This document shows positions 36,513-63,734 of a stretch of 64,000 bases of DNA, piece after piece (the stretch's first letter is position 1; each line of letters starts with the position of its first letter). Location: NCBI GenBank assembly GCA_031265955.1, contig JAISBY010000006.1, positions 1-64,000 of the forward strand. Direction: 5' to 3'. The notes below the pieces were generated by a model. It did no database searches and had not been told where the DNA came from. It saw only the letters and a list, made by a program, of their open reading frames with translations. The position numbers and the translations under genes are program-made. The stretch is from Mycoplasmataceae bacterium (GTDB taxonomy: Bacteria; Bacillota_I; Bacilli_A; Mycoplasmatales; Mycoplasmoidaceae).

Positions 36513-36727
36513 AACTCAATTATCTTCTAACAATAGGAGATTGGTAGGTAATACAAGTCACATTATTAATTAGGGCGATAGTAATATCGTTATAATTTAT
36601 CGCTATGTGAGAGATTCCTACACTAGTAGTTACGTTACCGATTCTAATAGTGATATTGGCAACATTTACTTTAAATTGTTTTTTTAGAATCAGAGTTAAA
36701 CTTTGACTCTCGAATTCCAAAATTAAA
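36513..36727. other. Spacer without a convincing gene
   Basis: 215 bases between the antiporter and the poly-G membrane-protein gene. TATAAT at about 36592 points rightward and would give a 130-base leader. A leftward 66-codon frame with a TTG start lies here but has no supporting signal. Confidence 0.4.
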
Positions 36728-61808: not shown

Positions 61809-62519
61809 CTATCATTTTTTAGTTAAATTAATTAATTGCTTCTTGAACGCTATGATTTGTTTATCATAAAGCGTTCTTTTTTTATGTTCCATTTTAATGT
61901 TAATTGTGTCCATCACTTGCATTGGTTTATGTGACATAACATAAATGTAATTAGCGACTGTTAATGATTCGTCCAAGTCATGACTTACAAAAACTACTGT
62001 CCGTTTATCTTTTTTTCATAGTCGAAGGAATAAATTAATAACGTTTCGTTTAATATTGATATCCAATCCAGTAAATGGTTCATCCATTAATAAAGTTTGT
62101 GATGGGTATAAAAATGCTCTTAATAGAGACAAACGTCGTTTCATGCTACCACTTAACTGATCTGGATATCAAGAACCAATGTTTTCTAATTCTACTTCTC
62201 TTAGTCCTTGTTGAATTAAAGACGTACGTTTGTTTTGATCTTGATAAACACCTTTAAGGATTAAATCTAAATTTTTAAAAACAGTAATTTCATTAATTAA
62301 TCTTTCTTCTTGAAATAGGTATGAAATTTTGTTAGATGTTTTATTAATGTAACCACTCTGTGGAGTGATGGTGCCACTAATTAAATTTAATAATGTAGAT
62401 TTACCAGCTGCACTCGGACCAATAATACAATTTATTTTATTGTCTTTAAATTGAATATTAAATTTATCTAAAATCTTATTAGTTCCGTAACTAAAGGTAA
62501 CGTTTTTAAAACTAAGCAT
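61809..62519 (-). CDS. ABC transporter ATPase, NitT/TauT type
   Basis: 236 residues. Walker A GPSAAGKST, Q-loop LFQEERL, signature LSGSMKRRLSLLRA, Walker B TLLMDEPFTGLD, H-loop VSHDLDES. Family pattern is that of nitrate/sulfonate/taurine or thiamine-precursor importers. ATG lies inside the permease end (8-base overlap), so translation is coupled. One TGA-coded Trp before the stop. Confidence 0.92.
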
Positions 62520-63369
62520 GGTATTTACCTCTTGTAAAAAAATTAATTAAAATCTTACGATCTTGATATTTAGAAGGCATGCTTAATCTACCAATTTCTT
62601 TAATTATTAGTTCCATTACTAAGCTTAATACAATGGCAATCATACCTCATCCCATCACAAGGTCGTATTGTTTATTTTTTAATGCATCACTTAAAATTAC
62701 ACCAATTGATGGATAGTCTGGGCTAATCGATGTTACTACAGTTTGCACAAACTGCGAAGCAATTGCAATTTTAAAAGTTAAACCAAATCCTGCAACTAAT
62801 GAAGAAAATAAATACGGAGTAGCAACCGGAACATAGATGTTTCAAAATTGATTTCATTTTGAAACATTGAAAACATTAGCCATTTCAATTTGCTTGTGAT
62901 CAATATTATCAATGGCATTATTAATTCCTTCATAAAGCATTGGAAAAATAACAAAGAAAGCTACTACGATTGGAACTAACGCTGGAACCGGCAATAAGAA
63001 TACAGCAATTAAAACTAATAATACCGCAGTCGGTAGCGCTCTTGCTAGAGTGACAAAAGGAATCATTATGTAATACACGATTTTAGAATACCGACTCAAA
63101 ATTGCAAAGCCTGTTGATAGTATAAACGCACCTAACAAGCAAGCTAATGATTGAGACCAAGCAATCGCCATCGCCTTTCAATTTTGATTACTACTTAGAA
63201 TTTTGCCGAACGCAACAAAACATTTGCCTACGTTAGGTAATACACCATTATTTTTATAAACAGTTGCCGATAAAATTGTTCAAATGATAAATACTAAAGC
63301 AAGCCCAACTATTCACGCTAAAGTTCCTCAAAGGATATGAGTTTTCGATAAATTATTTTTAGCTCGCAT
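62512..63369 (-). CDS. ABC transporter permease, NitT/TauT type
   Basis: 285 residues, six helices; the EAA-like coupling loop is EMANVFNVSKWNQFWNIYVP. Sequence RYSKIVYYIMIPFVTLARALP and LVAGFGLTFKIAIASQFV fit SsuC/TauC/ThiX-type permeases. Substrate not readable and no substrate-binding protein lies in the window, so it may be just outside or encoded elsewhere. Its ATG overlaps the regulator's stop. Confidence 0.88.
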
Positions 63370-63607
63370 ATAAAACCTTTGCTGAAATTCCTTTTAATGC
63401 TCCGAGTTTTCCGCTTAATGTTGCAATATCATCTTGTTTTGTTTCAATAGCAACACTAATAATGCATAAATCATGCTTTCGATGCGGAATACCCATTCGT
63501 CCAATAATGAATTGACGATACTCATGTAATAAATCATTAACATGTTTTACTTGTTCAGAGTCCTTAACAACTATTCCGATTAAAGCGATTCTTTCGTTTG
63601 TTTTCAT
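63359..63607 (-). CDS. TM1266-type iron-only hydrogenase system regulator
   Basis: 82 residues. The sequence RIALIGIVVKDSEQVKHVND, then LLHEYRQFIIGRMGIPHR and LSGKLGALKGISAKV follows the Thermotoga TM1266 family (ACT-like fold, IGRMGIP signature), found beside [FeFe]-hydrogenase maturation genes. Start chosen at MKTNER, behind AAGGAC; an upstream frame extends only through leader RNA. First gene of a three-gene coupled operon with an ABC importer. It probably senses a small ligand; target unknown. Confidence 0.9.
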   Translation of the reverse strand: MKTNERIALIGIVVKDSEQVKHVNDLLHEYRQFIIGRMGIPHRKHDLCIISVAIETKQDDIATLSGKLGALKGISAKVLYAS

Positions 63608-63629
63608 AACATTAGTCCTTAAATAAATT

Positions 63630-63665
63630 AAAAATTGTGTCATTACTGCAAAGTAAAGACACAAT
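63630..63665 (-). terminator. Leader terminator of the regulator-ABC operon
   Basis: On the minus strand ATTGTGTC t TTACT, four-base loop, AGTAA t GACACAAT, then TTTTT: 13 pairs with one 1x1 mismatch. It precedes the first gene by about 25 bases. Confidence 0.75.
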
Positions 63666-63722
63666 ATAAATGTTTTTGATGTCTCACTTTGTATGCAGAG
63701 CTTAATCTTTATACGCAGTAAC
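63630..63722 (-). promoter_or_regulatory. Riboswitch-like leader of the regulator-ABC operon
   Basis: The predicted transcript begins GTTACTGC (63722-63715), which is complementary to GCAGTAAT (63649-63642), the 3' inner strand of the terminator. Closing this outer stem would disrupt the terminator, the usual riboswitch platform. Between lie about 65 bases able to form small helices (for example GACA/TGTC). No known aptamer consensus (TPP, SAM, purine, preQ1, fluoride) was recognised. Confidence 0.5.
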
Positions 63723-63728
63723 GAACAC

Positions 63729-63734
63729 ATTATA
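63729..63734 (-). promoter_or_regulatory. -10 box of the regulator-ABC operon
   Basis: TATAAT on the minus strand, seven bases before the first base of the outer stem, giving a leader of about 115 bases, the longest in the window. Confidence 0.65.

Follow-up and report, generated by a model that had tools for sequence, protein, structure and literature searches.

A symmetric hairpin RNA family in the predicted attenuator leaders of TM1266 operons from mollicutes and other Bacilli

The operon of a TM1266-family gene in a Mycoplasmataceae genome is preceded by a leader that, as judged from comparative and folding analyses, is probably a transcription attenuator belonging to a conserved family of RNAs controlling hydrogenase-related operons. 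Its key element, absent from the original prediction for this region, is a 34-nt core hairpin at the 5' end of the transcript. By sequence comparison, this core belongs to a conserved RNA family with strong covariation, located upstream of TM1266 operons and found in Erysipelotrichales-type Bacilli and three mollicutes. Hereafter, the window denotes the whole stretch of 64,000 nucleotides that was analysed, which is mollicute DNA with TGA encoding Trp.

Architecture of the leader and its operon

The leader and the operon are on the minus strand. A -10 box (TATAAT, 63734..63729) predicts a transcript start at ~63723-63721; the expected position, ~63722, lies seven bases past TATAAT and agrees with the start initially proposed. 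The leader (5' UTR, 63722..63608), delimited using sequence and RNAfold analyses, precedes the gene of an 82-residue TM1266-family protein, a putative hydrogenase-system regulator (63607..63359; PF21699, E = 3e-29; TIGR03959). This protein scores above the curated cut-offs of both signatures (101.2 bits versus 27 for PF21699 and 101.6 versus 60.8 for TIGR03959), in line with the hydrogenase-type regulator first assigned there. Sequence matches identify the other genes as coding for an ABC importer permease (BPD_transp_1, nearest to the SaoP/SsuC types; 63369..62512) and an ABC importer ATPase of the taurine/NitT type (62519..61809), which agrees with the NitT/TauT-type importer of the original prediction.

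The core hairpin (63719..63686) reads ACU GC GUAU AA AGA uuaagc UCU GC AUAC AA AGU. It harbours the P2a stem (63714-63711 paired with 63694-63691), assigned by covariation across the core family, and, within 63714..63691, an AA/GC internal loop, an AGA/UCU inner helix and the apical loop. Parts of the same region can be engaged in a predicted antiterminator, in which the 5' strand of an outer stem (GUUACUGC, 63722-63715) pairs with GCAGUAAU (63649-63642), and the 3' end of the core with its flank (AAAGUGAGACA, 63690..63680) pairs with positions 63661-63650 (duplex z = -3.1). An intrinsic terminator hairpin (63664-63630; UUGUGUC..GACACAA followed by UUUUU; -12.7 kcal/mol) uses the 3' strand of the outer stem, GCAGUAAU, so that the two pairings compete. 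The switching strands UGUCUUUACUUU and GCAGUAAU (63661..63642) are thus common to the antiterminator and the terminator in the RNAfold models. The outer stem and the terminator had both been proposed for this 3' strand, and we recovered the two pairings at the same positions.

For the full leader, RNAfold gave -25.8 kcal/mol for the antiterminator versus -22.8 kcal/mol for the core plus terminator, a gap of 3 kcal/mol. When growing transcripts were folded, the core alone was obtained at 40-60 nt and the antiterminator from 80 nt. The whole leader is more stable than its shuffled versions (z = -2.1) and is predicted to switch between mutually exclusive conformations that include an expression platform. 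It is mainly the comparative data that exclude chance: the mollicute relatives share the core, and R1, a covariance model built without any mollicute sequence, recovers all three mollicute copies.

The core RNA family

The element shared by the family is a direct repeat, NCUGA-NNNN-AAAGN. Its two copies base-pair to generate a hairpin with an NCU/AGN outer helix, mirrored GA/AA internal loops flanking P2a, and an AGN/NCU inner helix. The resulting core is pseudo-two-fold symmetric (NCUGA-stem-AAAGN-loop-NCUGA-stem'-AAAGN). By comparison, family members have cores of 32-35 nt near the transcript 5' end, with a terminator downstream. The window core conforms to the family pattern NCU-(GA/GC)-P2a-AA-AGN-loop-NCU-(GA/GC)-P2a'-AA-AGN, with 10 of its 10 pairs being standard. 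Members are further characterized by a terminator or an overlap with the Shine-Dalgarno sequence, and the window leader has the former.

A scan of leaders for this element yielded 42 leaders that exceed the best of 60 shuffled controls. As the scan itself rewards pairing, controls were performed on the alignment. In an alignment of 23 non-mollicute leaders, 88.7% of the cells are paired and the covariation score is 0.657, a value reached by none of 500 shuffles, while slid partners score at most 0.15. The 48 model matches, a few of which are weak, gave similar values (88.9% of cells paired, covariation of 0.651); across alignments, slid-partner covariation does not exceed 0.17 versus 0.65 for the real partners. 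R1 finds the window copy with 21.2 bits (E = 3.7e-4 in 10 kb), the runner-up scoring 7.7 bits; this search was performed with the Infernal filters off, since the copy is lost under default filtering. Blind matches were also obtained in two mollicute relatives, G041 (27.8 bits) and G055 (25.8 bits). No convincing second copy was found in the window genome (0.98 Mb). A weak match to the core model at 36662-36694 of the window (19.4 bits, E = 0.13 over ~1 Mb), with many pairs missing, is probably due to chance.

We considered that the conserved element might act as DNA, with a repressor binding the direct repeat CTGCRTAYAAAG just 3' of the promoter. Such an operator would be consistent with the 19-20-bp spacing of the repeat in mollicutes and with its near-constant distance from the -10 box. 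It is nevertheless most improbable, given the compensatory changes in P2a and the inner helix, an apical loop that varies from 3 to 8 nt in length, the presence of copies inside operons at the hydG start site and the terminators that lie downstream.

Besides the window genome, only G055 and G041, which are of the same genus, have TM1266 among the genomes of the family. Both have the same operon, and their leaders carry the same core. A search of 95 family genomes for the pattern TAYAAAGN{4,10}CTGCRTAYNAAG gave exactly three sites, each in one of these TM1266 leaders, and none with the pattern reversed. The outer stem reappears in G055 with a changed sequence (CAUGCU/AGCAUG) and is absent from the G041 leader, in which the core sits within the terminator stem. 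The full-length G055 leader folds best as the terminator, and at none of the lengths tried was the core the predicted optimum. Covariation among relatives, which had been put forward as support for the outer stem, is strong in the core, and the outer stem is not the conserved unit. We rejected it as the unit of homology in favour of the nested symmetric core, and regard it as part of the antiterminator.

In agreement with the lack of a known aptamer consensus noted at the outset, Rfam 15 returned no family at the gathering score for the window leader, with only chance matches up to E = 10, and no family for the related leaders. The HMP-PP riboswitch (thiS motif) was considered for the layout of the G041 leader, since both are short elements merged with an intrinsic terminator. 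That riboswitch is associated exclusively with genes for HET-P biosynthesis or use (PMC6478431). We ruled it out because the core has no such HET-P/thiamin gene association: the core-controlled genes are those of TM1266, hydE/G/F, importers and nitrogenase-like proteins. The core also differs from it in being a repeated CUGA/AAAG hairpin.

Operon contexts and predicted switching

TM1266 operons are present in other Bacilli, mainly in the order of G320, which we take to be Erysipelotrichales-type. Four gene settings were read, namely hydE-hydG-hydF (for H-cluster maturation), an SsuA/NMT1-like substrate-binding protein with a permease, FecCD importers with hydF, and nitrogenase-like genes. The core also heads operons whose first gene is not TM1266. 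That the same core precedes hydE-hydG-hydF, FecCD importers and nitrogenase-like genes leaves the ligand initially envisaged, whether the imported substrate or a precursor of thiamine, without support; among the core-controlled genes, none for thiamine was seen.

At the loci L150, L151, L153, L154, L058, L093 and L097, nitrogenase-like nifH/D/K homologues are found together with HydF, TM1266 and sometimes HydE or a FecCD importer; hydG was not found in the stretch read at these loci. A weaker core (26.5 bits) at L156 (G699 C1:80667) precedes nifH-like genes, then an apparent hypF-C-D-E series, presumptive names that we assigned by reading the sequences. This context suggests that the core might be linked to NiFe-hydrogenase maturation too. 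A second core is located between hydE and hydG in three genomes (L052:2780-2813, L059:2780-2813 and L086:1941-1973), and in all three its 3' AAAG enters the hydG Shine-Dalgarno sequence. At L102, the AAAGA of the core overlaps the Shine-Dalgarno sequence of TM1266.

The distance from the best -10 box to the core is ~9-13 nt in most related leaders (9 nt in the window), so that the core comes right at the start of the transcript. A terminator lies between the core and the start codon in 37 of 39 related leaders, compared with 45 of 156 shuffles (29%), and terminators of -9 kcal/mol or better are found in 35 of the 39 leaders versus 7% of the shuffles. The 3' half of the core and its flank pair with the 5' arm of the terminator beyond the shuffled level (mean z = -1.4), with p < 0.05 in 13 of 37 leaders where ~2 would be expected; several leaders show no significant pairing of the core to the terminator arm. 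The notion of a controlled leader gains support from the competing folds, the family-wide core and the frequency of terminators. An ordinary read-through terminator leader devoid of any regulated switch is hardly credible: AT-rich genomes do give many chance hairpins, as the shuffles illustrate, but the core is conserved with covariation throughout the family and keeps its position relative to the promoter and the terminator.

According to our model, the core would form first during transcription. If not stabilised, its 3' end (AAAGU and flank) and 5' strand would be drawn into the antiterminator and the operon would be read. If an effector held the core, the terminator would form and expression would stop. 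In some relatives, the stabilised core would alternatively mask the Shine-Dalgarno sequence. OFF is the likely direction of this modelled switch because the 3' half of the core pairs with the terminator 5' arm, such that core formation would free the terminator. The location of the G041 core within the terminator stem and the Shine-Dalgarno overlaps at L102 and hydG are consistent with an OFF response upon core stabilisation. The opposite logic had first been envisaged, with the imported substrate stabilising the outer stem (GUUACUGC/GCAGUAAU) and turning the operon ON. Although the outer stem is the most stable fold and returns in G055 with a changed sequence, we regard this scheme as improbable: the stem is missing in G041, conservation and covariation lie in the core, with which the stem competes, induction of an importer by its own substrate would be unusual, and the same core controls the biosynthetic hydEGF operons.

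Candidate effectors and the link with hydrogenases

Our tentative choice for the effector of the proposed OFF switch is the TM1266 protein of the operon itself, which might report on H-cluster or metal status; we consider it at least as likely as a metabolite. A search of 196 genomes of the order with R1 identified 20 genomes with matches below E = 5e-4, all 20 of which have TM1266, against a background of 72 of 295 genomes in the order. No strong match was found in any TM1266-less genome among the 196. Matches of E = 0.003-0.1 in such genomes are at chance level, and the contexts read correspond to coding sequence. For G410, in which HydG is present and TM1266 is absent, neither the search of the order nor the 9 kb surrounding hydG revealed a core, and six further permease-bearing mollicutes have neither TM1266 nor a leader core near the permease gene. 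In G743, the core is found on an importer operon 110 kb from the TM1266 gene. The near two-fold symmetry of the core suits a symmetric protein, which favours TM1266; 2nzc, the nearest structure solved, comprises four chains. No core was found upstream of TM1266 relatives in Brachyspira, Anaerostipes and Lentisphaeria, where TM1266 must therefore act otherwise.

In PyrR, TRAP and ribosomal-protein leaders, a small regulator gene is usually part of the controlled operon and the protein site is a short hairpin; both attenuation and Shine-Dalgarno masking occur in protein-controlled leaders. The core leaders resemble them in all these features, with a regulator gene in the controlled operon that co-occurs with the core, but the core sequence is new and TM1266 is NikR C-terminal-like by sequence match. 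We found no report of RNA binding by TM1266 in the literature.

The co-occurrence of TM1266 and the core may only reflect membership in one regulon. Since a shared regulon explains the same data, a metabolite or metal riboswitch is a strong rival, if not the reading that we favour. The two symmetric CUGA/AAAG internal loops would then bind one or two ligands directly, such as iron, an H-cluster intermediate or a related compound, with the OFF logic unchanged. The compactness of the core, the conservation of its internal loops, the terminator alternative and the control of both importer and biosynthesis genes by one element are consistent with a riboswitch, as is the presence of elements at the head of operons that start with genes other than TM1266. 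Conversely, the core is very small with no junction or pseudoknot identified, strong matches are confined to genomes with TM1266 among those searched, and both the symmetry and the Shine-Dalgarno overlap also suit a protein site.

The window TM1266 protein is a member of TM1266/TIGR03959, described as a putative iron-only hydrogenase regulator, a family whose mechanism we did not find described in the literature. Its relatives adjoin hydE, hydG and hydF. Here, the gene is preceded by a conserved leader RNA and is the first of an importer operon in HydG-less genomes. All nine permease-bearing mollicutes, the window genome among them, lack HydG, as do G331 and G694; these two possess the core, TM1266, the substrate-binding protein, the permease and the ATPase. 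The [FeFe]-hydrogenase catalytic domain is present in all nine mollicutes and in G331 and G694. With completeness of 78-91% for these metagenome-assembled genomes, single genes could be missed, but not HydG in all nine. In the full window genome, no match to HydE or HydG was obtained, and those to HydF were short and of the kind seen with other GTPases. That genome encodes two [FeFe]-hydrogenase catalytic domains (G000 C3:47565-48416 and C3:488898-489578; L184 and others).

Within the mollicute genus, HydA is found in 9 of 9 genomes with the permease versus 3 of 10 without it (Fisher p = 0.003), G066, with a weak permease match only, being placed among the latter. The association of the permease with HydA and the absence of maturases make an importer serving H-cluster assembly a reasonable hypothesis, and the importer may supply something for this process. 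Unlike the related TM1266-importer operons of other Bacilli, those of the mollicutes (61809-63607 in the window, L008 and L009) have no gene for a substrate-binding protein; none was detected in the window genome using PF09084, BLAST or a profile of the proteins from eight relatives. A more complete scenario, in which TM1266 would be an RNA-binding H-cluster or metal sensor that clamps the hairpin and the importer would also bring a precursor replacing H-cluster biosynthesis in HydG-less or HydE/F/G-less genomes, is rather unlikely as a whole.

Our literature search on TM1266, hydrogenase-linked riboswitches and HydA without maturases, with one large motif survey outside its scope, returned no prior description. 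The RNA family, its symmetric core and the link with hydrogenase genes appear to be new, while the attenuation mechanism is of a known kind. If our reading is correct, these leaders represent a new type of RNA regulator associated with hydrogen metabolism, and the uncharacterised TM1266 family would gain a testable role. It would also indicate that importers are co-regulated with H-cluster assembly in HydG-less genomes with [FeFe]-hydrogenases, making the acquisition of the hydrogenase cofactor without the usual maturases experimentally approachable.
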